A DNA stretch of 64,000 nt from an uncultured Alphaproteobacteria bacterium (GTDB lineage: Bacteria > Pseudomonadota > Alphaproteobacteria > Micavibrionales > Micavibrionaceae), in assembly GCA_937934135.1 (NCBI GenBank), contig CALHAW010000002.1, positions 1 to 64,000 on the forward strand. The letters are read 5' to 3'. Both the position numbers and the translations under genes were made by a program. The notes beneath the pieces are model-generated. The model did not search any database, was not told the DNA's origin, and saw only the letters and a list, made by a program, of their open reading frames with translations. Below, one piece after another: positions 590-41,214 of this stretch; within the stretch, counting starts at the first letter, position 1, and every line of letters starts with the position of its first letter.

Positions 590-3500
590 TTACTTGTTTG
601 ATTGCTTCATGTCGATATTCAGACCAAGGGCTTTTAGCTCTTTGGTTAGAACGTTGAATGATTCCGGCACACCAATTTCAAATGTGTCTTCACCCCGTAC
701 AATCGATTCATAAACTTTTGAACGACCCGCCACGTCATCTGACTTAATCGTCAGCATTTCCTGTAGCGTATAAGCCGCACCGTAAGCTTGAAGCGCCCAA
801 CATTCCATCTCTCCGAAACGCTGTCCACCAAACTGGGCTTTACCACCCAGCGGTTGTTGCGTCACAAGCGAGTATGGTCCGATAGACCTTGCGTGAATCT
901 TATCATCAACCAAGTGATGTAATTTCAACATGTAAATGATACCAACAGTCACCGGACGGTGGAATTTCTCCCCCGTACGACCATCAATCAATGTCACCTG
1001 ACCTGTTGTTGGAAGACCTGCTTCTTCTAAAAGCACATCAATGTCTTTTTCGACTGCACCATCAAAGACTGGCGTTGCCATCGGCACACCAGGGCGAAGA
1101 TTATTGGCCATTTCAACAACTTGAACATCATCCAATTTCTGAACTTTATTTTCAAATTCGCTATCACCATAGGCTTCAGACAGCTTAACGCGAAGGTCTT
1201 TTACTTCGCCCGCTGCGGGTGCTTTCTTATCGGCAAAACCGTCAATCATGTCACCAATTTGCTTCCCAAGGTTTTTCGAAGCCCATCCCAAATGCGTTTC
1301 CAAAATCTGACCCACGTTCATCCGTGATGGAACACCAAGCGGGTTCAACACGATATCAACAGGCGTACCATCTTCGGTATAAGGCATGTCTTCTTGTGGC
1401 ATAATGCGCGAGACAACCCCTTTATTACCATGACGACCCGCCATTTTATCACCGGGCTGCATTTTACGCTTAATCGCAACAAAGACTTTAACCATCTTCA
1501 TCACACCGGGCATTAATTCATCACCGCGTTGCAATTTTTCAACTTTGCTTTCAAAACGCTCTTTAATGTCATCAACCGCATTTTCAACAGTCTTTGTCAT
1601 CGCCTCAATTTCAGACATTACTTTTTCGTTCTCAATGACGATTTGACGCCATAGACCACGTTTCATGTCACCCAGATTTGCCTTCGTCAGCTTGTCACCT
1701 TTTTTCAGGCCACCATCTTTGAAGGCTTTTGCAACAGTTTGACCAGAAAGAAGCTCTTCCAAACGACCGTAAAAACCATCTTCGATGATCTTACGTTCAT
1801 CATCACGGTCTTTCGCAAGATGTTCGATCTCTTCTTGTTCAATCGCCATCGCACGTGAATCTTTATCAACACCGCGACGGTTAAACACGCGCACATCAAT
1901 AATCGTACCCACCGCACCAGATGGAAGACGCAATGATGTGTCTTTCACATCGGCTGCTTTTTCACCAAAGATCGCACGAAGAAGCTTTTCTTCTGGCGTC
2001 ATGGGCGACTCCCCTTTTGGTGTTACTTTACCAATTAAGATATCACCGGGCTGTACTTCCGCACCAATATGAACAATTCCTGATTCATCCAAATGCTTCA
2101 GGGCTTCTTCACCCACATTCGGAATATCCCGTGTGATTTCTTCCGTACCCAATTTGGTATCACGCGCCATCACTTCATATTGTTCAATATGGATCGATGT
2201 ATAAACATCGTCACGCACAATACGCTCAGACAGCAAGATCGAATCTTCAAAGTTGTAACCATTCCATGGCATAAACGCGACCAACACATTACGACCCAAC
2301 GCCAATTCACCAAATTCAGTGGACGGCCCATCCGCAATAATGTCACCCGCATTAATTTCATCACCTACTTTAACAAGTGGTTTTTGAAGCATACACGTCG
2401 ATTGGTTAGAACGTTGGAATTTTGACATTTTATAAATATCAACAACCGCTTCATCCGTTCCCAACTCTTCCGTTGCACGAATAACCACGCGGTTTGCATC
2501 CACCTGTACGACAATACCTGAACGGCGCGCCGTTACAGCCGCGCCAGAATCACGGGCTACTGTCGCTTCCATACCAGTACCAACCAATGGCGCTTCTGCT
2601 TTTAGAAGCGGCACAGCTTGGCGCATCATGTTTGATCCCATAAGCGCACGGTTCGCATCATCATTTTCTAGGAAAGGAATAAGTGACGCCGCCACAGAAA
2701 CCATCTGCTTCGGACTCACATCCATAAATTCAATTTGATCTGGTTGTGACATAAGGTTGTCACCGCTCTTACGACAAGAAACCAGCTCCGCTTCAAATCC
2801 ACCCTTATCGGTTAATTTAGAGTTCGCCTGCGCAATCACATATTTGGATTCTTCCATCGCAGACATGTAAATCACTTCGTCAGTTACTTGACCATTTTCA
2901 ACGCGGCGATAAGGTCCCTCAATGAAACCATATTTATTCACCCGCGCAAATGTCGCAAGAGAGTTAATCAAACCAATATTGGGTCCCTCTGGCGTTTCAA
3001 TCGGACAAATACGACCATAATGAGTTGGATGCACATCACGCACTTCAAATCCAGCGCGCTCACGTGTTAAACCACCTGGGCCCAGCGCCGATAGACGGCG
3101 TTTATGGGTAATTTCAGACAATGGATTGGTTTGATCCATAAATTGTGACAGCTGTGATGAGCCAAAAAACTCACGCACCGCCGCCGCAGCAGGCTTCGCA
3201 TTGATTAAATCATGCGGCATGTAAGTATCAATCTCAACCGAAGACATACGCTCACGAATGGCGCGCTCCATACGCAATAGACCCACACGGATCTGGTTTT
3301 CCATCAATTCACCAACGGAACGCACACGGCGATTCCCAAGGTTATCAATATCATCCACTTCCCCTTTACCGTCTTTCAGACCATGTAAATATTGAAGCAT
3401 CGCAATAATATCAGATTTAGTAAGTGTCCGTACTTCATCCGGCGTATCCAGATCAAGGCGGGTGTTCATCTTGTTACGACCCACATCAGAAAGGTCATAA

Positions 3501-4861
3501 CGCTCCGCATCAAAGAAGAGCGAGTTAAACAAAGCTTCCGCAGATTCAACTGTCGGTGGCTCACCTGGGCGCATCACACGGTAAATATCAATCAACGCTT
3601 CTTCACGTGTATCACATTTATCGACCTGTAATGTGTTACGCACATAAGGGCCAACATTTTGGTGATCAATGCTAAGGATCGGAAGGGTTTTGATTGAAAA
3701 TTCTTCAAACTGTACCATGTCTTCTTCGGTCAATTCATGACCCGCCTCGAAGTAAACTTGCCCCGTACCCGCATCAAAAATATCTTCCGCCAAATAAGAC
3801 CCAATCAGTTGTTCATCTTGAACCATGATATTTTTCAGGCCGCCTTCAACCAATTTCTTGGCTTTACGTGGTGTGATTTTATCACCGGCTTCGGCAACAA
3901 CGTCACCTGTTTTACCGTCAATCAAATCATGTGCTAATTTCACGCCACGGTAATTTTCCGCGATGAACGGTGTTTTCCACCCTTCAGATTCTTTTTTGTA
4001 AGGAACAGTTTCATAGAAAGTCGATAGAATTTCTTCATTCGTCATGCCTTGAACATTCAAAACATCAGGCTCAACACCTTTATCTGCGCATTCTCTCAAG
4101 TAAACTTGCGAGGCCTGCGACGGCAATGAACGCATAAACGTTGTCACAGGTAATTTACGACGGCGATCAATACGCACGAACATCAAATCTTTTGCATCAA
4201 ATTCAAAATCTAACCATGATCCACGATATGGAATAACACGGGTTGAGAAGAGATATTTACCAGAAACATGGGTTTTACCACCATCATGGTCAAAGAACAC
4301 ACCCGGCGATCTGTGCATTTGGGATACGATAACACGCTCTGTTCCGTTCACAACGAACGTTCCGTTATCTGTCATCAATGGCATATCAACCATGTAAACA
4401 TCTTGCTCTTTAATATCACGGATAGAACGCAGACCTGTGTCCTCATCAACATCAAACACAGAAAGACGCAATGTCACACGCAATGGCGCAGAGAACGTCA
4501 TGCCACGTTGCTGGCATTCCTCAACATCATATTTTGGCTGCTCCAACTCATAAGAAACATAATCAATTTCCGCCTTGTCAGAGAAATCTTTAATTGGGAA
4601 AACTTCAGTCAGAACCTTATGCAGACCCTGCATCATACGGTCATTTACTGAAATACCCGCTTGCAAGAATTGCTCGTATGAATCACGTTGCACTTCAATC
4701 AGGTTTGGCATCTGCGCGACTTCACGGATTTTTCCGAAAGAACGACGCACACGCTTCTTACCAGTGTACGAACTAATGTCGTTGGCAATACCGGTATGAC
4801 CACGGGTCACATCCTTGTTTGCGCTTAAAATTTTACCTGCTTTTTTTGCTTGTTTTGCCAT
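590..4861 (-). CDS. rpoB: RNA polymerase beta subunit
   Basis: 1423 residues, somewhat longer than the E. coli protein (1342) but usual for alphaproteobacteria. It forms half of the catalytic centre of RNA polymerase. The rifampicin-binding cluster (roughly residues 560-600) has the consensus residues of sensitive enzymes: [18 protein letters not shown] followed by LSALGPGGL. The C-terminal clamp and switch region ([20 protein letters not shown]) is present. The start was taken at MAKQAKK, after an open 365-base gap behind rplL. It is co-transcribed with rplJ and rplL upstream and rpoC downstream. Many antisense ORFs lie inside it and look like codon-bias shadows. Confidence 0.98.
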
Positions 4862-28576: not shown

Positions 28577-29818
28577 ATGACATTTAAGAAATACGCATTT
28601 ATGGGATCTTGCGCTGTGCTTGCAATTTTTGCTGCGCCATATGCAAATGCCGCTGGATTTTATATTCAAGAACAATCAGTCAAAGGACTGGGCGCGGCCT
28701 TTTCAGGTTCGTCAACATCCATTGAAGATGCCAGTACCGTTTATTTTAACCCGGCAGGCATGACCAAGTTAGAAGAGATGCAAGGAAATTTAGGTGTTCA
28801 TTTAATTGCACCGGATTCAAATTTAGAAGATACAGGCACAACCCTGCCCCCAGGAATCACCGAAAGCGATAATAATAGCAATTTCAGTATTGAGCCCGTT
28901 CCTAATGCGTATGGCGTTATCCCTTTGACTGATAAAATTTGGGCTGGTTTTGGAACTTCTGCCCCCTTTGGTTTGGGCAGTGAATATGACCATGATTTCT
29001 TTGGCCGTTACGATGCCACGCAGACAGATTTAAAAACGATTAATTTCACCACAGCAATGGCCTATAAGGCAACAGAATGGCTTTCTGTAGGCTTGGGCGT
29101 TGATGTACAATATGCCGATGCCAACTTACAATCTGCGGCTTTTGCAGGTACCGAAGGGATAAGCCGTTTAGAAGGGGACGATTGGAGCTATGGTTATAAT
29201 GTAGGCGTTCAAATTAAACCCTTTGAGCGGGCGGAAATTGGTGTTCATTATCGCTCCGCCATTAAACATGAATTGCACGGCACGATCAGCGCCGAAGGAA
29301 CAGGCGCCGGAGACTTTAGAACAACAGGGAGCGCCGATTTAGACCTGCCTGACATTGCAACATTTGGCGCTGCCTATGACCTTACAAATAAGACACGCCT
29401 TATGGCACAGGCCACATGGTTTGGGTGGAATAATTTTGAAGATATTACCGCCGTAAGCAGTGCGGGTACTGTCATTTCAAGTGTGACGCAAAACTATGAA
29501 AACACATGGGCGTTTGCCTTTGGGGTAGAGCATGATTGGAATGACCAATGGACGGTACGCGCTGGATATCAACATGACGAAACACCAACCAATGATGAGT
29601 TTAGAACAACGCGAACACCAGATGGTGACCGTAATTGGTTCAGCACAGGCGCAACGTTTAAATATACCGATCATATTGAGTTAGACTTTGCTGCTACCTA
29701 TATCGATGTAGGCGATGAGACAGTGAATGTAAGCCGTAATGCAGGACTTTCCAATGTCCGTGCAGATACAGATGGCCGCGTTGGTATTATATCTGCGGCG
29801 TTTAATTACAAATTCTAA
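28577..29818 (+). CDS. FadL/OmpP1/TodX-family outer membrane porin
   Basis: 413 residues with a signal peptide ending ANAAGFYIQEQSVKGLGAAFSG, the FadL hallmark, in which the mature N-terminus plugs the barrel. The SSTSIEDASTVYFNPAGM motif follows. Alternating hydrophobic residues and the C-terminal aromatic residue (FNYKF) indicate an outer-membrane beta barrel. FadL porins take up long-chain fatty acids or other hydrophobic compounds. With the acyl-CoA dehydrogenase, hydratase and thiolase genes nearby, fatty acid uptake is the likely role. Ends at a strong bidirectional terminator. Confidence 0.93.
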   Translation: MTFKKYAFMGSCAVLAIFAAPYANAAGFYIQEQSVKGLGAAFSGSSTSIEDASTVYFNPAGMTKLEEMQGNLGVHLIAPDSNLEDTGTTLPPGITESDNNSNFSIEPVPNAYGVIPLTDKIWAGFGTSAPFGLGSEYDHDFFGRYDATQTDLKTINFTTAMAYKATEWLSVGLGVDVQYADANLQSAAFAGTEGISRLEGDDWSYGYNVGVQIKPFERAEIGVHYRSAIKHELHGTISAEGTGAGDFRTTGSADLDLPDIATFGAAYDLTNKTRLMAQATWFGWNNFEDITAVSSAGTVISSVTQNYENTWAFAFGVEHDWNDQWTVRAGYQHDETPTNDEFRTTRTPDGDRNWFSTGATFKYTDHIELDFAATYIDVGDETVNVSRNAGLSNVRADTDGRVGIISAAFNYKF

Positions 29819-29836
29819 AACGTAAAACGATATATT

Positions 29837-29872
29837 AAAAAGCCGCGATCATCTTGATACGCGGCTTTTTTA
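29837..29872. terminator. Bidirectional terminator between fadL-like and SCP2 genes
   Basis: AGCCGCG / CGCGGCT stem with a 12-base loop, preceded by A and followed by six T. It serves the two convergent genes. Confidence 0.85.
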
Positions 29873-29894
29873 ATACATTCAATTTAACGGGATA

Positions 29895-30197
29895 TTAATC
29901 CTCAATGATTGAATTAAGCTTCATCGCCAACCCCATAGAGCCGTCTACTTTAAGTTTCCCCATCATAAAGGCCATCGTTGGATCCTGTGTACCTTCCATC
30001 AGACCTTTGAACGTATCAAGGGAGCATTTCAAGGTACAATCAGCGTCTTCATCATCATGAGAAATAACCGGCGGATTTTGTGTCGCATCTACGAAAATAA
30101 CGCCATCATCGCCAAAATCAAACTTCACCTTGGCATCCAGCCCTGCAGCCAACGCCATTTTTTCCTTAATGCTTTGCGTTACTATTTCTAATGACAT
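29895..30197 (-). CDS. SCP2 sterol-binding domain protein
   Basis: 100 residues, a stand-alone SCP2 domain. Typical elements are VKFDFGDDGVIFVDA, an acidic DDEDADCTLKCSLDTFKGLMEG and TMAFMMGKLKVDGSMGLAMKLNSI. These small proteins bind lipids or acyl-CoA in a hydrophobic tunnel. It lies close to the FadL-like porin and upstream of fatty-acid degradation genes, which supports lipid handling. It follows the ABC transporter gene by 24 bases on the same strand. Confidence 0.9.
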   Translation of the reverse strand: MSLEIVTQSIKEKMALAAGLDAKVKFDFGDDGVIFVDATQNPPVISHDDEDADCTLKCSLDTFKGLMEGTQDPTMAFMMGKLKVDGSMGLAMKLNSIIED

Positions 30198-30221
30198 TTT
30201 ATTTCCTTATTAATTTAATCG

Positions 30222-32096
30222 TTAGTTTTCTTGTAAAAAGCCACCAGACTGCATGCCCCATAATCGCGCATAAAGCCCATCTTTTTGTTTTAAAAGATCT
30301 TGGTGACTTCCATCCTCGACAATACGCCCTTCATTCATCACAATCAACCGATCAAGATGGGAAATAGTAGATAAACGATGCGCAATCGCAATAACAGTTT
30401 TTCCTTCCATCAATTTTTTTAAGCTTTCCTGAATTAATTTTTCTGATTCAGAATCCAACGCTGATGTGGCTTCGTCTAAAATTAAAATTGGCGCATTGCT
30501 CAAAATAACACGGGCAATGGCAATACGTTGGCGTTGCCCACCAGATAGTTTAACCCCGCGCTCCCCTACCATCGTATTATATCCTTCTGGTAGATCCATA
30601 ATAAAATCATGCGCATAAGCTTTTTTGCTGGCATCAATCACCTCTGCATCGGTTGCACTACTAGATCCATAGCGGATGTTATCCATTAATGAACGATGAA
30701 AAAGACTGGTGTCTTGAGGAATCAAAGCAATTTTTTCGCGTAAAACATGAAAGGGAATATTTTTGATGTTATGCCCATCAATCAAGATTTCTCCTTCATC
30801 AACATCCCACAAACGTAATAAAATCGACATAAGCGTCGTTTTTCCTGCGCCAGAAGGGCCAATTAAACCAATTTTTTGCCCATCAGGAATAATCAAATCA
30901 ATATCTTGTAAAATTTTCTTTGAATTTTGATATTGGAAATTCAATTTACTGAGCGCAATCGTACTGCTTTTTAATTCAAAATCTTTCTCTACGATCGGAT
31001 CAATAAGGTCATGTGGTGTACCAATTTCGATCAACCCTTCACGGATTGAACCAATCGATTCCATAACATCTCGAATAATGTGATGTAGCCCCCGAACTTG
31101 GGCAATCAACATGAAAAGCGTTCCCATGCTACCCACAAAAGCAGCGATAGAAAGCCTGCCTGTAATAACACCATTTCCTAAAATCCAAAGCAGTGCAGAA
31201 ACCAGCACCATAATAGAAAAATCCCGGACAATATTTTTAACACGCGCCCAGGTTGAAGACTCCATAAAGGCTTCATATACTTGTTGGCTATGTGCCGCGA
31301 CTTTAATATCTTCTGCATTTTTAGATTGAAAAAGTCGTACGAGAGCATTGTTAATCACCGCATCTGTCAACAAACCTGATGCCTGTGCGCGGCGTTTAAC
31401 AGTTCGCATCATAAATTTTTGGGAAATAAGCCCCATTTTAATAGAAGACCATAAAAAGAATATTGCCCATCCCAAGAAAAATAAACCTGCATATAGATCT
31501 GTTAAAAACATAATCACACTGACAAAAATAAGAGATATAAAAATGGGGAAAACATCCCAAACGATAAACCCTAAAACGACGTAAATTTGGCGTGATACCT
31601 CAGATATGCGATGGGCAATTTGTCCCGCTTCGCGGGTGGAAAACCATCCTGCAGAATGCCCCAATGCCCACCACGTTAATTGCCTGCGTGCAAGCGCTTC
31701 ACCGCTACCACGACTTCTATCTGCCTGACGCACAGTTAAGAAATTTGTGATAGCACAAGCGGACAACATCACAATCATAATCATAACAAGGTACGATAGT
31801 TTATCTGATGTCACTTGTCCTTCTTCAATAATATAGGACATGAACTTACCAATCACCAAAGGAATGGAGAGGTATAATATTGTAAAAAATGCTTCCAGAA
31901 TATATCCCGTAGTTAAAAACCAAACGGCGTTTTTATCTTTTAATATATTTTTAAATAAACCTATAAAAGTTGTACTAGGTTCTTGTTGGACCAATTCAGC
32001 GCTTAAATCAGGATCACGTTGTGGTACAAGCCAAGTATGTATCTTTCCAATTAAGCCTGTTAGAGGATAGTCAGTATTATTCGTTGAAAGTTTCAT
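30222..32096 (-). CDS. ABC transporter, fused permease and ATPase
   Basis: 624 residues: an N-terminal six-helix exporter-type domain (about residues 50-340) and a C-terminal ATPase with Walker A IGPSGAGKTT, Q-loop, signature LSGGQRQRIAIAR, Walker B ILILDEATSALD and H-loop IAHRLST. This is the half-transporter layout of MsbA-like exporters, which work as dimers. The substrate cannot be told from sequence. Between panC and the SCP2 gene, all on the minus strand; possible lipid export is a guess from context. Confidence 0.92.
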   Translation of the reverse strand: MKLSTNNTDYPLTGLIGKIHTWLVPQRDPDLSAELVQQEPSTTFIGLFKNILKDKNAVWFLTTGYILEAFFTILYLSIPLVIGKFMSYIIEEGQVTSDKLSYLVMIMIVMLSACAITNFLTVRQADRSRGSGEALARRQLTWWALGHSAGWFSTREAGQIAHRISEVSRQIYVVLGFIVWDVFPIFISLIFVSVIMFLTDLYAGLFFLGWAIFFLWSSIKMGLISQKFMMRTVKRRAQASGLLTDAVINNALVRLFQSKNAEDIKVAAHSQQVYEAFMESSTWARVKNIVRDFSIMVLVSALLWILGNGVITGRLSIAAFVGSMGTLFMLIAQVRGLHHIIRDVMESIGSIREGLIEIGTPHDLIDPIVEKDFELKSSTIALSKLNFQYQNSKKILQDIDLIIPDGQKIGLIGPSGAGKTTLMSILLRLWDVDEGEILIDGHNIKNIPFHVLREKIALIPQDTSLFHRSLMDNIRYGSSSATDAEVIDASKKAYAHDFIMDLPEGYNTMVGERGVKLSGGQRQRIAIARVILSNAPILILDEATSALDSESEKLIQESLKKLMEGKTVIAIAHRLSTISHLDRLIVMNEGRIVEDGSHQDLLKQKDGLYARLWGMQSGGFLQEN

Positions 32097-32125
32097 AAAA
32101 TAGCTTCTTTTTTATATATTTAATC

Positions 32126-32929
32126 TTACGGAATAATCGCCATATTATCAATTAAGCGGGTTTTTCCGAGCCATGCGGCGGCTAAAATTCTATCTGGGTT
32201 TTTGGAGTGGAATGTTTTGCTATTGCGCGCGGTTATATAATCAATTTTATCAAACCCCGCTTTTAACAATTTCACCCGCGCTGCCTCTTCATCAATATGT
32301 CTATGCGCCATGTCTTTTATAATTTTATTAAGCTGGATAGCGCTCTGATACTCTCCTTCAGATAAGTATACATTACGGGAGGAAAGCGCCAATCCATTTT
32401 CATCACGCGCAGTTGGTGCGCCAATAATCTGTATGGGAAGGTTATAATCACGCACCATGGCGCGAATAACCTGTAATTGTTGAAAATCCTTTTCACCAAA
32501 AATGGCAATGTCTGGTTTTGAAAGCACAAACATACGCGCCAACACTGTTGCAACCCCATCAAAGAAATGCGGTCGACTTTCGCCCTCTAACGGCTTTGCG
32601 ATATCGCTTGCCTTATGCGTGATTTGTGGACCATCAGGGTACACATCATCCATGGAAGGCAACCACACGGTTTGCGTGCCTATTTTTTCAAGCTTTTCTA
32701 AATCTGCCTGTAATGTTTGAGGGTAGCTATCTAAATCCTCCCCTGCGGCGAACTGTGTTGGGTTTAAGAAAATATAAGGTAGGCAAACATCCGCCGCTTT
32801 CATTCCCACCTTCACCAACGCCAAATGTCCTTCATGCAGCGCGCCCATCGTTGGGATGAGCGCGACAGTTCTACCGTTAAGAGAATTTTGAAATTCTTCA
32901 AGATCAGATAAATTTTTTATCTGTTTCAT
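32126..32929 (-). CDS. panC: Pantothenate synthetase
   Basis: 267 residues. It condenses pantoate and beta-alanine with ATP to pantothenate, a CoA precursor. The N-terminal ALIPTMGALHEGHLALV holds the ATP-binding HIGH-type motif (HEGH). Further blocks are FLNPTQFAAGEDLDSYPQTL, HFFDGVATVLARMF, FGEKDFQQLQVIRAMVRD and LALSSRNVYLS. It lies 10 bases downstream of the acyl-CoA dehydrogenase gene, so the two may be co-transcribed. CoA supply for beta-oxidation would be a sensible link. Confidence 0.97.
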   Translation of the reverse strand: MKQIKNLSDLEEFQNSLNGRTVALIPTMGALHEGHLALVKVGMKAADVCLPYIFLNPTQFAAGEDLDSYPQTLQADLEKLEKIGTQTVWLPSMDDVYPDGPQITHKASDIAKPLEGESRPHFFDGVATVLARMFVLSKPDIAIFGEKDFQQLQVIRAMVRDYNLPIQIIGAPTARDENGLALSSRNVYLSEGEYQSAIQLNKIIKDMAHRHIDEEAARVKLLKAGFDKIDYITARNSKTFHSKNPDRILAAAWLGKTRLIDNMAIIP

Positions 32930-32938
32930 AATGGTTGA

Positions 32939-34726
32939 TTAAAATTCAGACTCATTATGTGCCATTAGGCTTTCTGCGCCGGCCATAACGGCTTTAAAGT
33001 GCCAATCAGCTTCGGGCAGCATACGGGAAAAGAAGAATTTGGCTGTTTTAATTTTAGCTTCAAAAAATTCTTTATTGCCTTCACCCCCTCCATTGATAGA
33101 GGTTAATTTTTCCTGTGATATTTTCACCATTTGAATCCACATATACCCCATAGCCACCAACGCAAAATGGCGTAGATAATCAACAGATGCGGCGCCCGCT
33201 TCGGTTGGATCTTTCAACCCTTTTTGCGCTGTCATGGCGGTGGCTTGTTGTAATTTTGCAAAAGATTTAGCGAGCGGGAAAATAAATTCCTGTAATGCTT
33301 CGTCTGTTTGGTTTGTTTCAATAAATTCCTGAACAGGATGGAAGAAACGACGAAGATAACGCCCCATATGCGCACCCATTTTACGCCCCACAAGGTCCAG
33401 CGCCTGAATACCATTTGTGCCTTCATAAATCATCGCAATACGGGCATCACGGGCATATTGTTCAACACCATATTCACGAATATAACCATGCCCCCCATGA
33501 ATTTGCATGGCGAGGGACGACACTTCAAATCCCATATCGGTTTGATATGCCTTCACGATAGGTGTTAAAAGTTGTACCAAATCATCGGCTTCTTTACGGG
33601 TGGCTTCATCTTCATGATGAAGAGAGATATCTAAATTCATACCCACCCAATAAGATAAGGCACGCGACCCTTCACAAAAGGCCTTTGACGTCAGCAACAT
33701 ACGGCGCACGTCAGGATGGACAATAATAGGATCAGCGGGCTTATCAGGGAATTTCACACCATCTAGCGCCCGCATCTGCAAACGATCTTTGGCATATGCC
33801 AACCCATTTTGATAGGCAACCTCCGCAATACCAAGCCCCTGCATCGCAACACCAAGGCGCGCGGCATTCATCATCACAAACATAGCCTTAAGACCCTTAT
33901 GAGGTTCACCCACCAGCCAGCCTTTGGCGTCTTCGAGGTTCATAACGCAAGTTGAGTTGGCGTGAATACCCATTTTATGTTCAATAGAGCCACAGGCAAT
34001 GCCATTACGGCGCATATCTTCTGGCATAAATTTAGGCACGACAAAAAGAGAAATTCCTTTCACCCCTTCTGGAGCATCAGGTAAGCGAGCGAGGACAAGG
34101 TGAATGATATTTTCACTTAAGTCATGCTCCCCTGCGGAAATAAAAATCTTTGTGCCTGTTATTTTATATCCATCGCCATCCACTTCGGCTTTAGTCCGTA
34201 AAAGACCCAAATCTGTTCCGCAATGCGGTTCTGTCAGGCACATTGTTCCTGACCATTCCCCTGTAACAAGTTTTGGAAGGTAGGTATCTTTTTGTTCTTG
34301 CGTTCCAAAGTGATGCAGCGCCTCATACGCGCCTTGTGACAATCCAGGATACATACCAAAAGAAAAGTTGGCAGAACAAATCATTTCTTGCATGACCGTA
34401 TTAACCAGCGCCGGTAAACCCATACCACCAAATTCAGGATCTGCAGATACGCCGCACCATCCCGCCTGGGTAAAGGCATCATACGCTTCTTTAAATCCTT
34501 TGGGTGTTGTTACGTCACCGTCCTTCCATGTACAGCCTTCTTCATCACCACTTTGATTAAGCGGAAAAAGAACTTCTTCACATATTTTGGCACCTTCTTC
34601 GAGGATTTGATCAATTAAATCTGCGCTCGCATCCGCAAAATCAGGGATTTCGGTCAGTTTTTCTGCGCCGAGAACATCATGAAGAACGAATTTGATATCT
34701 TCCATTGGGGCATTATAAATTGGCAT
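32939..34726 (-). CDS. Acyl-CoA dehydrogenase (about 600-residue subclass)
   Basis: 595 residues, the longer subclass that includes DmdC-type and FadE-like enzymes. It oxidises acyl-CoA to enoyl-CoA with FAD. Visible elements: N-terminal MPIYNAPMEDIKFVLHDVLG typical of this subclass, FAD/substrate loop MCLTEPHCGTDLGLLRTKAE, ITGTKIFISAGEHDL, QIHGGHGYIREYGVEQYARDARI and the catalytic Glu region MIYEGTNGIQALDLVGRK. A C-terminal extension follows. Chain-length specificity is not readable. It supplies the first step of the beta-oxidation set in this window. Confidence 0.94.
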   Translation of the reverse strand: MPIYNAPMEDIKFVLHDVLGAEKLTEIPDFADASADLIDQILEEGAKICEEVLFPLNQSGDEEGCTWKDGDVTTPKGFKEAYDAFTQAGWCGVSADPEFGGMGLPALVNTVMQEMICSANFSFGMYPGLSQGAYEALHHFGTQEQKDTYLPKLVTGEWSGTMCLTEPHCGTDLGLLRTKAEVDGDGYKITGTKIFISAGEHDLSENIIHLVLARLPDAPEGVKGISLFVVPKFMPEDMRRNGIACGSIEHKMGIHANSTCVMNLEDAKGWLVGEPHKGLKAMFVMMNAARLGVAMQGLGIAEVAYQNGLAYAKDRLQMRALDGVKFPDKPADPIIVHPDVRRMLLTSKAFCEGSRALSYWVGMNLDISLHHEDEATRKEADDLVQLLTPIVKAYQTDMGFEVSSLAMQIHGGHGYIREYGVEQYARDARIAMIYEGTNGIQALDLVGRKMGAHMGRYLRRFFHPVQEFIETNQTDEALQEFIFPLAKSFAKLQQATAMTAQKGLKDPTEAGAASVDYLRHFALVAMGYMWIQMVKISQEKLTSINGGGEGNKEFFEAKIKTAKFFFSRMLPEADWHFKAVMAGAESLMAHNESEF

Positions 34727-34929
34727 AAAATCTCCTGATCAAGTGATTGTGGTGTCTTAAATTATTTTATCATAAAGAAAGTAAAGCTTCTATGAATTCG
34801 CTAAAAAATTATGACAGAAAATATTATGACATTAAATAAACTTAATTTCCTAAGATTAAGGCATTTTTAACTGCTTTAAGAGAAGCTATACTACTTAGAT
34901 ATTTTTTTAATCCATAAAGGGCTTTTTTC

Positions 34930-36462
34930 ATGACCAATCCATCCAAAGGGTATAATGACCTTAAATTTTATTTTGCGAATTTGAACACACTATTTTCCAT
35001 CCGCAATACACTTGCCGTTGATATGATGACAGCCATGCCGCTCGGCAGTATGAAACGCCGTATTAACGATATTTCATCTATTACGAAACGTATCTATGCC
35101 GAAACAACAACGCCGACTGTTACAAAATTGCTTGATGATGTTGAAAATCAAATTGCACAAAGCAATGACGGGTGGAACGCATGGGATCTGCAAAATGTTA
35201 TAGAGATGCGCCGGATTCATTCGCATCTTTCTGCCTTGCCCCCTGAACTTTATATTGCATCTGTTAAGGCATCCAATGAAGGACGCCGTATGCATGCTAT
35301 TGCTTTAGCAAATGGAGATTGGAGCGAGGCAGAGCCTTACATTCAAAAAGTTGTAGATTTATACAAACAAATTGGAGATTTAAAACAAAAGAAATTTAAT
35401 ACCGCAACGCGGTATCGTGCGCTTCTTTTGGGATATGCCAATGATATTTCAACGCGTCAGATTGATGATTTATATGATTCATTATTAGGCCCTCTTCAAA
35501 CGCTGTATGGCAAAGCCCTTGAAAAGCAAAATGCACAAAATAAGCCGACGCCCCTTGATGGAGATTTTTCTAAAACAGATCAAATGTGGCTCAATAAAAC
35601 TGTTCTTGAAATGATGGGTTTTGATCTAAATAGTGGGGGTATTTACCAATCCTCCCTATCCCCGATGACCGGTGGTAACCCTGAAGATGTGAGGATTTTA
35701 GTGCGTTGTGGAGACAGTAATTGCTTCCTCGACTCCCTCGAAGATACGCTTTATCAGGGCGCGCGTGGGCTTTATTATCAAAACCTTCCCGAAGAATGGC
35801 GTAATCAACCCGTAGGTCAAGACCAAGGAGCGATTATGCTGAACGCCGTTAGTCAGTTATATGAAACAATGATTGGCCGCACGCCAGAATTTTTTGATTT
35901 TGTATCAGTGCGTGCCGAAGGTGTGTTTAGACAATTTAAAAATAAATCATTTGATCCTGAAAATTTATATAAATTGAAAAAAATTATTCATCAAACATCT
36001 GTACGTAATGACGCCGATGAATTTTCAAAAATCTTTCATGACATGCTGCGTTATCGTATCGAACGGGACTTAATGAATAGTGATTTATCCGTTAAGGATA
36101 TTCCTGAGAGGTGGAACGAAGAAAGCAAGGCATTATTAGGGGTTACCCCTGCGACTTTACAAGAAGGCGCGCTACAAAATCCGGATTGGTTTACGGGTCG
36201 CTTTGGGTTTATTCCAACCAATACGCTATCGCATATTATTGCAGCGGAACTGCATCAAAAAATTGATACACAAATTGAAGATCTACCCGGACAAATTAAA
36301 AAAGGGCAGTTTAAAGAAATGGGCGCTTGGCTTAAAACCAATATACATGAAGTGGGGAAAAGCAAAGGCACGTTTGCAACCGTCAATGATATTTTAGGGC
36401 GGGAACCAAGCGGTGATGCGCTGATTAAGCACCTTGAGCGTCGTTATTTGACGGATAAATAA
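34930..36462 (+). CDS. M32 carboxypeptidase (Taq-type) homologue lacking the metal site; probable pseudoenzyme
   Basis: 510 residues, the full length of M32 metallocarboxypeptidases, colinear throughout: N-terminal coiled helices (YNDLKFYFANLNTLFSI), PEDVRILVR, the helix that normally carries HExxH, and the C-terminal GRFGFIPTNTLSHIIAAEL and WLKTNIHEVGKSKG. At the HExxH site the sequence is Y275-Q-G-A-R279, so both His ligands and the catalytic Glu are gone. About 29 residues on, the usual HESQS is L304-N305-A-V-S, so the third ligand Glu is Asn. The scaffold is intact while catalysis should be lost; a binding or regulatory role is likely. Single gene with its own upstream gap. Confidence 0.85.
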   Translation: MTNPSKGYNDLKFYFANLNTLFSIRNTLAVDMMTAMPLGSMKRRINDISSITKRIYAETTTPTVTKLLDDVENQIAQSNDGWNAWDLQNVIEMRRIHSHLSALPPELYIASVKASNEGRRMHAIALANGDWSEAEPYIQKVVDLYKQIGDLKQKKFNTATRYRALLLGYANDISTRQIDDLYDSLLGPLQTLYGKALEKQNAQNKPTPLDGDFSKTDQMWLNKTVLEMMGFDLNSGGIYQSSLSPMTGGNPEDVRILVRCGDSNCFLDSLEDTLYQGARGLYYQNLPEEWRNQPVGQDQGAIMLNAVSQLYETMIGRTPEFFDFVSVRAEGVFRQFKNKSFDPENLYKLKKIIHQTSVRNDADEFSKIFHDMLRYRIERDLMNSDLSVKDIPERWNEESKALLGVTPATLQEGALQNPDWFTGRFGFIPTNTLSHIIAAELHQKIDTQIEDLPGQIKKGQFKEMGAWLKTNIHEVGKSKGTFATVNDILGREPSGDALIKHLERRYLTDK

Positions 36463-36563
36463 CGCTTATTGTCAAAAACCAATATTTTCTGTAATGTCAC
36501 GGGGTGAAGTCAGTAGATTTCACCCCATTTTTATGGAGAGAGAAAATAAAAAAGGATTTTAAA

Positions 36564-36866
36564 ATGAGAAAATTATTTGGATTAGCATTCATTTTGGGTG
36601 CAACAGTGACATTATCTGCCTGTGGAGCCATCCCTGAATGCCGTCAAGAGCTTGATGAATGCACATATGGTGGCCCTTATACGGAAGAACGTACAGTTGA
36701 AGCAGGAAAACGTGTTGCCGTCGTCGCACCAGCGCCGGCCATTCCGGTTATCGCGCCAACACCGGCGCCGGTTCCTGCGCCGGTTGTAGCGCCAGTCCCT
36801 GCGCCTATTCGTGATATTGAAGTGATCCGTAGTGCGGAACCACAATTCAAGCAAATCTCTAAATAG
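36564..36866 (+). CDS. Small proline/alanine-rich lipoprotein
   Basis: 100 residues. A signal sequence MRKLFGLAFILGATVTLSAC carries a lipobox (LSAC) with Cys20, so it should be a lipoprotein. The next part has three more cysteines (ECRQELDECTYGGPY) and then a low-complexity stretch of Pro-Ala-Val repeats, likely an extended rod, ending in charged residues. The start was placed at the lipoprotein Met, with AAGGAT upstream; a longer frame was rejected. A strong terminator follows. No family is recognised. Confidence 0.8.
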   Translation: MRKLFGLAFILGATVTLSACGAIPECRQELDECTYGGPYTEERTVEAGKRVAVVAPAPAIPVIAPTPAPVPAPVVAPVPAPIRDIEVIRSAEPQFKQISK

Positions 36867-36890
36867 AGCTTTACTATAAGAATTTACAGA

Positions 36891-36928
36891 AGCGGCGCCC
36901 GTTATTTAATCGGGATGCCGCTTTTTTT
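36891..36928 (+). terminator. Intrinsic terminator after the lipoprotein gene
   Basis: AGCGGC / GCCGCT outer stem and CCCG / CGGG inner stem, followed by seven or more T. It lies between the lipoprotein and rhodanese genes. Confidence 0.85.
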
Positions 36929-36944
36929 ATAAAAGGATGTATAG

Positions 36945-37328
36945 ATGACTGTTACCGCCGCCAATTTTGTTGAGCGAATAAAAACAAACCCTGACCTATC
37001 TGTTTTGGACATTAGAAGTGCATTAGAGTTTTCAACACTTGTGCTGGATTACCCTGTTGTTCATATACCGCTCGACAATGCGAAGGCAGATATAAAAACA
37101 GAAAATTTTAAAGACCCCACTTATATATTATGCAAGGCAGGCCCGCGCGCACAAATGTTGAATGATTATTTAAATGATATTGGCGTCACGCATTTCATCG
37201 TGATTGATGGCGGGATTTTGGGATGTGCGGATCATGGCGCAAAAATTAATATTAAACGCCAAGATGTCAATCCCATGCAAATTCAAGAAGCCGTCCAGAT
37301 GTCTGTACAAGCTTATATGATGAGTTAA
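36945..37328 (+). CDS. Rhodanese-domain protein
   Basis: 127 residues, one rhodanese domain. It starts with AANFVERIKTNPDLSVLDIRSALEF, the usual first strand and CH2A-like motif, and carries the active-site loop ILC63-KAGPRAQ, with Cys63 able to take up a sulfane sulfur. The sulfur acceptor is unknown. It is a short gene after a terminator, with an AAAGGATG ribosome binding site, and is convergent with the GlpM-like gene (four-base overlap of the ends). Confidence 0.88.
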   Translation: MTVTAANFVERIKTNPDLSVLDIRSALEFSTLVLDYPVVHIPLDNAKADIKTENFKDPTYILCKAGPRAQMLNDYLNDIGVTHFIVIDGGILGCADHGAKINIKRQDVNPMQIQEAVQMSVQAYMMS

Positions 37329-37669
37329 GTGATAAATTTTTTACTAAGGTAGAAAATAAACACAGCAGAAACAAACCAAAAAGCCAAAGCCGTTGAAACA
37401 GCATAAATAAATTTTATACCGCCATTTAATAAAATATAAAAAGCACCCAAGTAAATTAAGTAAGCCACCATCGCCAAAAAACCGAATAAGATGATATGCT
37501 TTACCTGCTCCGCGCCTCCAATCTTAAAAGCCATGATATGAGCGAATAAAGTCAAAGTAGGAAAAAGAGGCGCAAGACCTGAAAGAAAGTAAAAATTAGT
37601 CCGGCTTAAAAATGCAATTAACACTGCCACTGCCGCACCAATAACTGCATTTATTATATAATAAAGCAT
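37325..37669 (-). CDS. GlpM/YdgC-family membrane protein
   Basis: 114 residues with four hydrophobic helices. The segment FYFLSGLAPLFPTLTLFAHIM corresponds to the conserved core of the GlpM/YdgC family (YIAGLIPLFPTFALIAHY in E. coli). The family's role is not settled; in Pseudomonas GlpM was linked to alginate and glycerol metabolism. The start ATG touches the stop of the gene encoding the FadN-type enzyme, so it is translationally coupled to fatty-acid degradation genes. Confidence 0.82.
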   Translation of the reverse strand: MLYYIINAVIGAAVAVLIAFLSRTNFYFLSGLAPLFPTLTLFAHIMAFKIGGAEQVKHIILFGFLAMVAYLIYLGAFYILLNGGIKFIYAVSTALAFWFVSAVFIFYLSKKFIT

Positions 37670-40086
37670 TAGTTTCTCAATGGCTTACCTGTCGTGAGCA
37701 TATGTTCGATACGATCTTGGCTACCTTCGATACGGACCAAGCGCATAAATTCTTCCCGTTCTAATTTGAACATATCATCTTCATGCATTGGCACGGTCCA
37801 GTCAGCATTTTCACCGCCCGTTAATACATGTGCTACCGCGCTGGACACCACGCCATCATACGGCGTTGCCTTGCCTGATTTTTGCAAATCAACCACGGCT
37901 AATTCCAGCGCAAGCTTTCCTGTGGGGCCTGGTAACCTTAAGTCCTCAACCGGTTCAGGCGCAGCATAATCTTTGGCCAGTTCCAACGCTTTTTCTTTTG
38001 CATCGAATAATAAACGATCCCGATTCATTGTGATTCCATCTGTGTTACGTAGGTATTTATATTCTTTTGCCTCTTGCGCAGATTTAGCCACTGTTGCCAT
38101 AGCGATGAGTTCAAATGCTTTACGCACCGCGCCCATTGGTGTGTTTTTAGGGCTAAACCAGAGTCTCTTACCACCTGTGGCTTTATCATATTGTTCGCGC
38201 TCAGCCTGTTGATAGCGTTTCACCATCTCAACACAGCCGCCCCATGCGGGCAGTAAACCAACGCCAACCTCAACCAAGCCAGTATAGGTTTCGGCATGTG
38301 CCTGTACATGATCTGCATAAAGGGAAATTTCGCATCCACCACCCAAAGCCATACCGCTTGGCGCAGTAACAACAGGGAATGGTGCATATTTCAGCGCCTT
38401 ATACATCGCCTGACCGCCATCAACGAGGGATTGAATTTGGGGCCACATAGCAATATTCATCGCAAAAATTGCGAGGCCTAAATTCGCGCCCGCAGAAAAA
38501 TGTGACCCTTCGTTATAAATAACCATGGCTTTATATTTTTCGCCATCAATCATCTTCATTGCTTTTTTATAGGCTTCAAAAACTTGATCATCGAGGGCAT
38601 TCATTTTACCCGTAAATTCGACACAAAGAACACCATCACCAATATCCCAGACAGATGCACTACCCGTTTTAATAACAGGGTCATTTGAAAGCTTAATATC
38701 ACGGAGCAACAATACGCCGTCCGCACGTTTTACTTCATGGTATTTTCCATCTGTGCCAAAGGCTTGAATTTTACCGTCTTCAACGCGGTAGAACGTGCCA
38801 TCCCCAACAGCGTCAAGGATTTCAGGCACTTCGATATTTTCAGCGCGCAGGCGGTCTGCAAAATATTTAGGGCCACTTATTTCTTTTGACCCTAAGGCAT
38901 CTATCATTTCGAACGGGCCTTTTTTCCAATTTGTTCCCAAACGCATGGCTTCATCGATTGAGTAAATATCATCAGAGATTTCAGGAACAAGAGACGCGGC
39001 ATAGGCCAAAGTTTGTGATAAGACTTTCCATGCGTAGTGACCGCCTTGGTCGTCTGTTTCAACAACCGCGCGCAGACCTTTTTTACCGGCGCTTACAGAA
39101 GCAAGTTTTTTCTTATTGCTTTTGCGATATTGGGCTTCATCAAATTTTTCAGGGTTTAAATCTAAAGTTTGTTTTTCTTTTGATCCTTTTGGTGCGTCAG
39201 GATTAAGGCGGTAAAACCCTCCCTTACCTTTGCGGCCATTATAACCTGCGTCAATCATCCCTTGGACGAATGGATAATCTTTGTAAATTTTGCGATATTG
39301 GTCGTCTTTTGGCAGGCTTGATAGCATCGAATTGGCCAAATAGGGCATTAAATCCACGCCAACCAAATCAATCAAACCAAACACAGCGGTTTTAGGAACG
39401 CCAATCGGTTTTCCCATGACGGCATCGGCGACTTCCAACGGAACATTGTCTTCTACCGCCACGTTTAGCGCGGTCTGCATCCAAAATACAAGCAGGCGGT
39501 TCACAATAAAACCAGGTGTATCTTTACAATGCACGACCCCCTTACCAAGGCGCACATCGCAAAATTCATGGATAATTTTTGTTGCATCATCGCGCGTTCG
39601 ATCCCCAGTAATAATTTCAAGCAAGCGCATATAACGCGGCGGATTGAAAAAATGCGTGATCATAAAATCTTTAACAAAGTCAGCGGGCTGCCCTTCGATT
39701 AATTGGCTCAGCGGCATAGTTGACGTGTTTGACGTTACGATAGAACCTTTTTTGCGGTGCTTTTGTATTTTCTCATAGGTAGCATGTTTGATTTTTAAAT
39801 CTTCCAGCACCACTTCCACAATCCAATCACAATCAGAGATCTTTTCTAAATCATCTTCTAAATTACCAACCTCAATCAATTTTGCATTGCGTTTTGACAT
39901 GAACGGCGCAGGGTCATCAGCCTTTAGCATTTTGGCAACGGCGCCCTTGGCAATAACATTACGGTCTTGTGAATCTTTAGGAACAATATCCAGCAACACA
40001 ACAGGCACGCCCGCATTGGCAATTTGCGCGGCAATCCCGCTTCCCATTAATCCCGCACCGATAACCGCAACTTTATTGATTGTCAT
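37669..40086 (-). CDS. 3-hydroxyacyl-CoA dehydrogenase / enoyl-CoA hydratase (FadN-type)
   Basis: 805 residues. The dehydrogenase comes first: NAD-binding VAVIGAGLMGSGIAAQIANAG, THFFNPPRYMRLLEII and FIVNRLLVFW within the first 310 residues, then a second dehydrogenase C-terminal domain. The C-terminal half is a crotonase: HFSAGANLGLA and MALGGGCEISLYADHVQAHAET. This order is opposite to E. coli FadB and matches Bacillus FadN. It hydrates enoyl-CoA and oxidises 3-hydroxyacyl-CoA. Its start overlaps the thiolase stop region, forming a pair equal to fadBA or fadNA. Confidence 0.94.
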   Translation of the reverse strand: MTINKVAVIGAGLMGSGIAAQIANAGVPVVLLDIVPKDSQDRNVIAKGAVAKMLKADDPAPFMSKRNAKLIEVGNLEDDLEKISDCDWIVEVVLEDLKIKHATYEKIQKHRKKGSIVTSNTSTMPLSQLIEGQPADFVKDFMITHFFNPPRYMRLLEIITGDRTRDDATKIIHEFCDVRLGKGVVHCKDTPGFIVNRLLVFWMQTALNVAVEDNVPLEVADAVMGKPIGVPKTAVFGLIDLVGVDLMPYLANSMLSSLPKDDQYRKIYKDYPFVQGMIDAGYNGRKGKGGFYRLNPDAPKGSKEKQTLDLNPEKFDEAQYRKSNKKKLASVSAGKKGLRAVVETDDQGGHYAWKVLSQTLAYAASLVPEISDDIYSIDEAMRLGTNWKKGPFEMIDALGSKEISGPKYFADRLRAENIEVPEILDAVGDGTFYRVEDGKIQAFGTDGKYHEVKRADGVLLLRDIKLSNDPVIKTGSASVWDIGDGVLCVEFTGKMNALDDQVFEAYKKAMKMIDGEKYKAMVIYNEGSHFSAGANLGLAIFAMNIAMWPQIQSLVDGGQAMYKALKYAPFPVVTAPSGMALGGGCEISLYADHVQAHAETYTGLVEVGVGLLPAWGGCVEMVKRYQQAEREQYDKATGGKRLWFSPKNTPMGAVRKAFELIAMATVAKSAQEAKEYKYLRNTDGITMNRDRLLFDAKEKALELAKDYAAPEPVEDLRLPGPTGKLALELAVVDLQKSGKATPYDGVVSSAVAHVLTGGENADWTVPMHEDDMFKLEREEFMRLVRIEGSQDRIEHMLTTGKPLRN

Positions 40087-41214
40087 TTACACACTCTCCA
40101 ACACGATCGCCGTTCCTTGCCCGCCGCCGATACACATGGTAGCAAGGCCGAGTTTTTTACCTTCGCGTTGCATCAAACTAGCGAGCTTGCCTGTGATCCG
40201 TGCGCCTGATGCACCCAATGGATGTCCCATTGCCACAGCGCCCCCATCAAGATTAAGCTTTGCGCGGTCAATTTTTAAACCCTTTACAACAGATAAAGAT
40301 TGCGCGGCAAAGGCTTCGTTTAATTCAATAATATCAATGTCATCAATGGACAAGCCTGCACGCTCTAACGCTTTTTTAGAGGCGGGAACAGGGCCAATTC
40401 CCATTGTTGCGGCGGCGCATCCGGCCACACCGACAGATTTAATCCGTGCCATAATCGGTAAATTATGCCTCTTCGCATATTCCTCGGAAGCCACCAAAAC
40501 AGCGGACGCGCCATCAGTAAGCGGAGAGGACGTTCCCGCGGTTACGGTACCATCTTTATCAAAAGCGGGTTTTAACGCGGCTAATGCTTCCTTTGTTGAT
40601 CCCTCACGAATACAGCCATCTTCGGTAACGCCATCAATCGGGACAATTTCATCCTTAAATTTTCCTGCGCTGCGCGCGGCAGCGGCTTTGTTTTGAGAGT
40701 CGACCGCAAATTCTTCTTGGGCATCACGATCAATTTTATATTCTTCGGCTAAATTTTCTGCTGTTTCCCCCATGCCCATATAGGCAGTGGGATACACATC
40801 CATCATAGCGGGGTTCGGCATAGGGTTAAAGCCACCCATTGGAATACGCGACATGCTTTCAACGCCAGAGCAAATAAACACATCACCTGCGCCCATTTGA
40901 ATATAACCTGCCGCCATTTGAATGGTCGTCATCGATGATCCACAAAAGCGGTTTACTGTTGCGCCTGCAACGCTATCGGGAAGGCCTGCCAGTTGCCCGA
41001 CAATCTTAGCCAAATTAAAGCCTTGCTCTGCCTCAGGAAAAGCGCAACCCATTATAATGTCTTCAATATCATCAACATTCACGCCCGTTTCCGTGACCAA
41101 TGCCTTAATAACGGCCGCCGCCATATCATCAGGGCGAGTTTTCGCCAGCGCACCTTTATTGGCAAAGGTAAAAGGGGAACGTTTATAACCACATAAAACA
41201 ACGGGAGTGTGCAT
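40087..41214 (-). CDS. fadA: Acetyl-CoA acyltransferase (thiolase)
   Basis: 375 residues. It cleaves 3-ketoacyl-CoA with CoA, the last step of beta-oxidation. The nucleophile is C91 (VNRFCGSSM), with a later NEAFAAQSL, GGAVAMGHPLGASGARI carrying the His, and CIGGGQGTA with the second Cys. It is the promoter-proximal gene, with the FadN-type gene directly after it (stop and next start touch) and the GlpM-like gene third. A clear ribosome binding site (AGAAAGG) precedes the ATG. Confidence 0.94.
   Translation of the reverse strand: MHTPVVLCGYKRSPFTFANKGALAKTRPDDMAAAVIKALVTETGVNVDDIEDIIMGCAFPEAEQGFNLAKIVGQLAGLPDSVAGATVNRFCGSSMTTIQMAAGYIQMGAGDVFICSGVESMSRIPMGGFNPMPNPAMMDVYPTAYMGMGETAENLAEEYKIDRDAQEEFAVDSQNKAAAARSAGKFKDEIVPIDGVTEDGCIREGSTKEALAALKPAFDKDGTVTAGTSSPLTDGASAVLVASEEYAKRHNLPIMARIKSVGVAGCAAATMGIGPVPASKKALERAGLSIDDIDIIELNEAFAAQSLSVVKGLKIDRAKLNLDGGAVAMGHPLGASGARITGKLASLMQREGKKLGLATMCIGGGQGTAIVLESV

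Follow-up and report, generated by a model that had tools for sequence, protein, structure and literature searches.

Carboxypeptidases of family M32 (Pfam PF02074), among them PfuCP, TthCP1, BsuCP and TcMCP-1, are microbial proteins that are related in fold to ACE and ACE2. The motifs of the family are listed in PMC7918520, and PMC7044196 names Arg348, His234, His408 and Tyr420 as the residues with which the B. subtilis enzyme (BsuCP) binds its substrate. Pseudopeptidases, in which catalytic residues have been lost within a conserved and selected lineage, are known from several metallopeptidase families. In alpha-MPP and the bacterial M16B pseudo-subunits of family M16, a dead metallopeptidase paralogue stands beside a live one, and alpha-MPP is essential to the function of its live partner. 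In Gone early (M13) and the M14 proteins CPXM1/2, AEBP1 and Ecm14, active-site residues have been replaced and function has been retained (PMC11266112, for both groups). A term search of this 2024 review of metallopeptidase pseudopeptidases did not find "M32". Likewise, no published M32 pseudopeptidase was found among titles and abstract openings in open-licence PubMed Central, and PMC4765119 and PMC9534799 do no more than refer to a tool and mention M32 peptidases.

The window is the whole stretch of DNA analysed, 64,000 nucleotides from a member of the Micavibrionaceae. At 34930..36462 (+) it contains an M32 gene whose product, by its sequence, would be a pseudopeptidase. The reading frame begins with ATG and runs for 510 codons with zero internal stops, and it is therefore intact, as had been claimed. 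The Pfam profile PF02074 (Peptidase_M32) matches the 510-residue protein at 301.8 bits, compared to a cut-off of 25.1, and profile positions 2-489 of 489 align to residues 11-506. A phmmer search of the PDB returned 8 M32 sequences, the best with an E-value of 1.3e-45. An AlphaFold model made from an alignment of 57 window and locus proteins has a mean pLDDT of 93.9 and a pTM of 0.93. Its best structural match is 3dwc_A (Z 47.5, 1.6 Å over 496 residues), and the eight M32 entries listed all match closely (Z 42.5 to 47.5), while ACE2 and oligopeptidases match more loosely, at a Z of about 22. A further comparison in support of the M32 fold gave a TM of 0.94. We take the matches at this level other than ACE and ACE2 to be oligopeptidases of family M3. 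The NCBIfam search gave zero matches for the protein, but it is uninformative, since two live M32 controls also had none. By descent and by fold, over its full length, the protein is a member of M32, in agreement with the earlier note, which had been made from the sequence alone.

The active site of this protein has been rewritten. In three printed PDB alignments (5e3x, 1k9x and 3hoa), HExxH aligns to Y275-Q-G-A-R279 (35752..35766, +), the third-ligand segment HESQS aligns to L-N305-A-V-S (35839..35853, +), and QDxHW aligns to Q416-N-P-D-W420 (36175..36189, +). The protein thus has neither the HExxH nor the Glu of HESQ, and it reads GALQNPDW at GxxQDxHW. The zinc and catalytic columns are H, E, H and E in all 76 other M32 proteins of the tree described below, while YQGA is present in 19/19 members of the clade to which the window protein belongs. 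Residue 279, which follows it, is R in 15 of these, K in 2, C in 1 and S in 1. Residue 305 is N in 16, and T, E and D in one each; it is E in 76/76 others. In QNPDW, N417 is found in 17/19 and D419 in 18/19, at columns that are D and H in 76/76 others. Lys367 (36028..36030, +) stands in place of an invariant Tyr (K in 17 and R in 2 of 19; Y in 76/76 others), and Asn431 (36220..36222, +) stands in place of the substrate-binding Tyr (N in 16/19; Y in 76/76 others). One further residue that is invariant in the 76 proteins, a Tyr at position 427, is F in 17/19 clade members. Both the PDB alignments and the clade columns therefore bear out the replacements first proposed, of HExxH by YQGAR and of the third ligand by Asn305.

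Other M32 motif residues have been kept. Arg359 (36004..36006, +), the Arg of the IRxxAD motif, is present in 18/19 clade members and in 76/76 others, and the window protein reads VRNDAD at this motif, with V at the first position. The Asp of the motif, Asp363, is Gly in 3/16 orthologues. Within the clade, D253 is conserved in 17/19 (E in 2), and R255, R374, Q416 and W420 are each conserved in 19/19. At the HPF and DxRxT motifs, the protein reads SPM and DVRIL, so that D and R are retained and the His and T are gone. The live sister enzymes read (H)NPV and DTRLV at these columns, and deviation here is thus, on its own, no mark of inactivity. In the live sister clade, the HPF His column is N in 34/38 proteins, and a His is found one residue earlier in 36/38 (for example, L038 and L047). 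By motif, without superposed coordinates, the BsuCP residues Arg348, His234, His408 and Tyr420 correspond to R359, residue 244, D419 and N431. Residue 244 is S in the window protein and N in most live sisters.

A displaced zinc site was rejected. Neither HExxH nor HxxEH occurs anywhere in the window protein, where a second HExxH would have told against the proposal, or in the other 18 clade members. There is also no clade-wide HxxE pattern that could mark a new metal site, HxxE being present in 4/19 proteins. By sequence, the protein is catalytically dead, as had been proposed, with its zinc ligands and catalytic residues replaced. Its groove would lack the metal chemistry and most of the catalytic contacts, yet the substrate-binding Arg, identified by motif, is retained.

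Dead-type copies form a defined lineage. A family search of 104 Micavibrionaceae genomes, which set aside the short fragments G024, G060:C158 and G077:C21, found such a copy in 19. Orthologues are present in 16 genomes, namely the window's own (G000) and 15 others at 63-74% identity. Ten of them, with the window's own genome among these, make up 10/10 members of its genus, and the other 6 come from three other genera. Deeper dead-type relatives are found in G023 and G061 (41-42% identity) and in G078 (39%). A tree was made of 95 M32 sequences, with an arbitrary root, after the fragment L031 and the partial distant M32 proteins L053 and L054 had been dropped and duplicate records collapsed. In this tree the 19 dead-type proteins form one clade with support of 1.0, and the position of G078 within it has support of 0.93. 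This clade pairs with a clade of 38 live HEGGH proteins, also with support of 1.0; two of the 38, L017 and L023, belong to another family of the order. The replaced residues are conserved across orthologues, and the close relatives carry the dead motif, although normal motifs in close relatives had been named as what would speak against the proposal. Orthologues from other assemblies show these replacements as well, and for this reason sequencing or assembly error and chance were rejected as explanations.

The deeper members suggest an order for the losses. In G023 and G061, HExxH is gone and the third ligand is still acidic (E and D, respectively), so HExxH would have been lost first and the third ligand later. 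By bit score alone, the G078 copy, at 359 bits, falls within the range of live copies, which is 352-407 bits. For this reason, 19 further M32-like matches from the family and one from the order (G507) were read. HExxH is present in 18 of these 20 and YQGA in 0. In the remaining two, distant copies from G032 and G060, the sequences HERIGH and HERLGH are found, along with an acidic DEARA; these proteins (L227 and L228), from one other genus, have one residue more between the His and no QDxHW. They possibly form another altered branch of M32, to judge by these motifs. In a class survey of 385 genomes, of which 196 had an M32 match, HExxH was present in 67/67 sequences read from outside the family (27 + 40). 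Two of the last 40 missed the HESQ pattern, but they read HESES and HEAQA, with the Glu present. An order survey (142 genomes, E limit 1e-100) and a phylum survey (398 genomes, E limit 1e-80) yielded no further members of the dead clade among the matches listed and read within those limits.

Most genomes that carry the dead-type copy also carry its live sister. A second M32 gene with HEGGH was found in all 9 other members of the genus, in the other 6 orthologue-bearing genomes and in G078, and so 16/19 genomes with a dead-type copy have both. The live paralogue has a complete HExxH, ESQ and QDxHW, and its copy in G004 is 36% identical to the dead protein over 505 residues. It also lies in a different neighbourhood. 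In four sister loci that were read, the live gene is found upstream of threonine synthase. In G009 it is preceded by a Lys-rich repeat gene, and an antisense frame of such a gene is found in G006 and G017. The contig of G004 begins just before the live gene, as do the contigs of several sister assemblies.

The window's genome differs from these relatives in having lost the live gene. A search for an active paralogue had been proposed, and it was run with both PF02074 and a live query; each found the dead copy only. On contig C38 of this genome, the Lys-rich repeat gene ends with a stop at 379 and threonine synthase starts at 528, with no M32 gene between them. Here (L135:1-1928), the Lys-rich repeat gene abuts threonine synthase at the site where sister genomes have the live M32. 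The repeat gene has no Pfam match and, by eye, is presumably H1-like. Since it directly adjoins threonine synthase, the live M32 has been lost, and since the flanking genes are contiguous, an assembly gap was rejected as the cause. A live copy elsewhere in the genome is unlikely because the assembly is 97% complete. In the window's species, the dead gene would not depend on the live one. G023 and G061, which are 90% and 85% complete, also have a dead-type copy and no match in the live sister clade, and both carry another, distant HEGGH M32.

The dead clade has been maintained by purifying selection over the whole M32 fold, and in genomes that carry both, its rate of evolution does not exceed that of the live sister enzyme. 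Among the 15 genomes with both genes, which give 105 genome pairs, the mean protein distance is 0.316 for the dead gene compared to 0.325 for the live gene, and in 47/105 pairs the greater distance is that of the dead gene. There are 201 invariant positions of 510 in the dead protein and 197 in the live one. Ratios of dN to dS were obtained with NG86, as YN00 returned a value for just one comparison. Of 10 dead/live pairs, 8 had at least one gene with a dS that exceeded 2.7 or was undefined. In the two pairs with the least saturation, dN/dS is 0.088/1.66 and 0.078/1.49 for the dead gene, which is about 0.05, and 0.139/1.72 and 0.086/1.41 for the live gene. The window's copy compared with that of G005 gives 0.200/1.76, a ratio of 0.11, and comparisons of this copy with those of G004, G006 and G007 are saturated. 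A decaying pseudogene was rejected on the grounds of the conserved clade motif, a constraint equal to that of the live sister and the low dN/dS. The earlier claim that the gene is not decaying, which had rested on the intact frame, is thus upheld on further grounds.

The window's own copy has evolved faster than its relatives. In Tajima tests with G003 as the outgroup, its unique changes number 71 vs 19 against G005, 70 vs 20 against G004 and 70 vs 20 against G007; with G002 as the outgroup, the numbers are 59 vs 25 against G005, 59 vs 26 against G004 and 55 vs 28 against G007. Against G006, which has the live gene, the excess is small, at 54 vs 34 (p 0.03), or 54 vs 40 with outgroup G002 (p 0.15). 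The excess over G005, G004 and G007 is larger than for the neighbouring FadE, FadA, SCP2-like and SCO1-like proteins. Among the 8 neighbouring families compared, F8 shows a similar rate in G000 and FadB is moderately fast vs G004 and G005; with outgroup G003, PanC has changed more slowly than in the relatives. The window's copy breaks 5 otherwise invariant columns, none of them among the active-site residues examined. At 34930-34960, most of the N-terminal tail that precedes GY(N/Q/K)DL is missing; the other 15 orthologues have this tail, which often ends in EPA. Constraint on the dead copy may have eased somewhat in this genome once the live gene was lost.

It is moderately probable that the protein is a non-catalytic M32 pseudopeptidase that binds a ligand in its old groove and acts independently. 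The computed alignments and tree show that an M32 gene, sister to the live HEGGH enzyme, lost all three zinc ligands and the catalytic Glu, together with the Tyr that binds substrate and, in QDxHW, both Asp and His. The new form then became fixed, with Y275, Q276, A278, R/K279, N305, K/R367, N417, D419 and N431. New basic residues (R279 and K367), along with Asn and Asp, would stand where the zinc centre was. The protein would be cytosolic and probably dimeric, as known M32 enzymes are, and would probably function by binding instead of cutting. The basis of this reading is that Arg359 has been retained while the metal chemistry has been lost. The most likely ligand would be a peptide or protein C-terminus, held through Arg359 and left uncut. 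A "peptide or substrate binder" had been suggested from the first, and the retained Arg favours this suggestion, which is so far a possibility. The protein would act alone, serving to bind, to scaffold or to sense, and would not be an obligate subunit of the live M32; it has been kept without its live sister in G000, and G023 and G061 likewise have no match in the sister clade. On the other side, the IRxxAD motif of Arg359 may have been kept for structure, the replaced positions, taken together, are not significantly more conserved than the rest (11/20 invariant vs 196/510; Fisher p 0.16), and the window's copy is the fast one among its relatives.

An arrangement in the style of alpha-MPP and beta-MPP, in which the dead protein forms a heterodimer with the live M32 as a regulatory or structural subunit and tunes its activity or holds its substrate, is unlikely. 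The live sister is present in 15/16 orthologue genomes and in G078, as such a partnership would have it. Moreover, the M32 enzyme ChtCP dimerises via helices 1 and 2 (PMC7918520), and the corresponding span, residues 6-59, is enriched in clade-specific invariant residues, with 12/50 (hypergeometric p 0.003 against all positions and 0.057 against invariant positions). The faster rate of the G000 copy relative to G005, G004 and G007, which is greater than for most neighbouring genes, and its shortened tail would also fit the loss of a partner. However, the excess is weak against G006, and F8 and, to a lesser degree, FadB are fast as well. G000, with a single M32 gene and no syntenic live one, keeps an intact dead copy with all of the replaced residues, whereas alpha-MPP is essential to a live partner. 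G023 and G061 also lack a live-sister match, albeit with a distant HEGGH M32 present and with the completeness given above. The idea of a regulator of a live paralogue has thus lost ground, and an obligate regulator is unlikely in a genome that has lost the live sister and kept the dead copy. The fast window branch leaves room for a looser link between the dead copy and the live enzyme.

A new enzyme, in which the rebuilt site of Tyr, Gln, Arg, Asn, Lys and Asp catalyses a different, metal-free reaction, is a rather doubtful alternative. The replacements are specific and nearly fixed, for example Lys/Arg367 in 19/19 and Asp419 in 18/19, and their pattern is more ordered than simple loss would give. 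However, a binding site or a need for stability would equally yield conserved substitutions, and the sequence suggests no reaction or substrate. It is very unlikely that the protein is a structural remnant on its way to loss, or a moonlighting fold in which the groove is not used. The dead type is found in just 19/104 family genomes, and the window's copy, with its shortened tail, evolves rather fast. Against this stand 16 full-length orthologues, two pairs with a dN/dS of about 0.05, the same degree of constraint as in the live enzyme and a predicted fold with a pLDDT of 94, and even the window's copy has broken only 5 otherwise invariant columns and spared the active-site residues.

The probable binder differs from the described systems in its family and its setting. 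It shares whole-length homology and fold with the M32 carboxypeptidases, along with the IRxxAD Arg, the D and R of DxRxT and the Q and W of GxxQDxHW, and unlike them it has the zinc ligands, the catalytic Glu, the QDxHW Asp and His and the substrate Tyr replaced. Gone early and the M14 pseudopeptidases belong to other families and are eukaryotic. The earlier note had spoken of a new kind of pseudoenzyme. As a kind, pseudopeptidases were already known; a case in family M32 appears to be new, within the limits of the literature searched. The system is suited to clean study since it offers many orthologues, a deeper branch in G023 and G061 with the third ligand still acidic, and a live sister in most of these genomes. 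There is in addition one genome with only the dead gene, and the case as a whole makes the role of a metal-free peptidase groove directly addressable.

The dead gene lies in a conserved neighbourhood. A fadE-like acyl-CoA dehydrogenase gene (32939..34726, −) is divergent from it, 203 bp away, followed by panC, for pantoate-beta-alanine ligase (32126..32929, −), and a gene for an SCP2-like small protein (29895..30197, −; family F5, with the Pfam SCP2 match shown for the G035 homologue). Downstream are genes for a fadB-like 3-hydroxyacyl-CoA dehydrogenase / enoyl-CoA hydratase (37669..40086, −) and a fadA-like thiolase (40087..41214, −). The small gene downstream of the M32 gene is presumably lipoprotein-like. 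As a whole, 28577-41214 is a conserved cluster of FadL porin, SCP2-like, panC, fadE-, fadB- and fadA-like genes. The fadE-like gene is found upstream and divergent, with 0-2 ORFs between, in 15/16 orthologue genomes and in G078; in the sixteenth, G006, the contig ends at the fadE side. A fadB-like gene is found downstream, within the stretch read, in 14/19 genomes. The pairing of panC with fadE recurs in relatives that have no dead M32. In one of these, G035, SCP2-panC-fadE and a comparable small downstream gene are present and the M32 gene between them is missing. At this empty site (L136, G035:C63), the space from fadE to the small gene holds a 212-aa ORF instead. A terminator-like hairpin with an 11-pair stem and a T run follows the M32 gene (36501..36526, +), which suggests that the gene is transcribed alone, although this hairpin is a consensus match only; the region holds 4 sites of this type, compared to 1.9 in shuffled sequence. 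A promoter scan gave signal at or below the shuffle level.

The gene neighbourhood alone hints at a link with fatty-acid oxidation or with its regulation, and does not in itself show such a role. A bolder and rather improbable form of the binder reading is that the fixed Tyr-Gln-Arg-Asn-Lys-Asp site would capture the C-termini of peptides or proteins, or some other carboxylate, and would signal to the genes for fatty-acid oxidation next to it. If this were true, the carboxylate captured could even be a metabolite of the acyl-CoA pathway, and the protein would found an M32 pseudopeptidase subfamily, with a peptidase turned sensor that has outlived its catalytic sister in the window's genome. 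Elsewhere in the window, an ORF of 1423 aa is found at 590-4861 (−).
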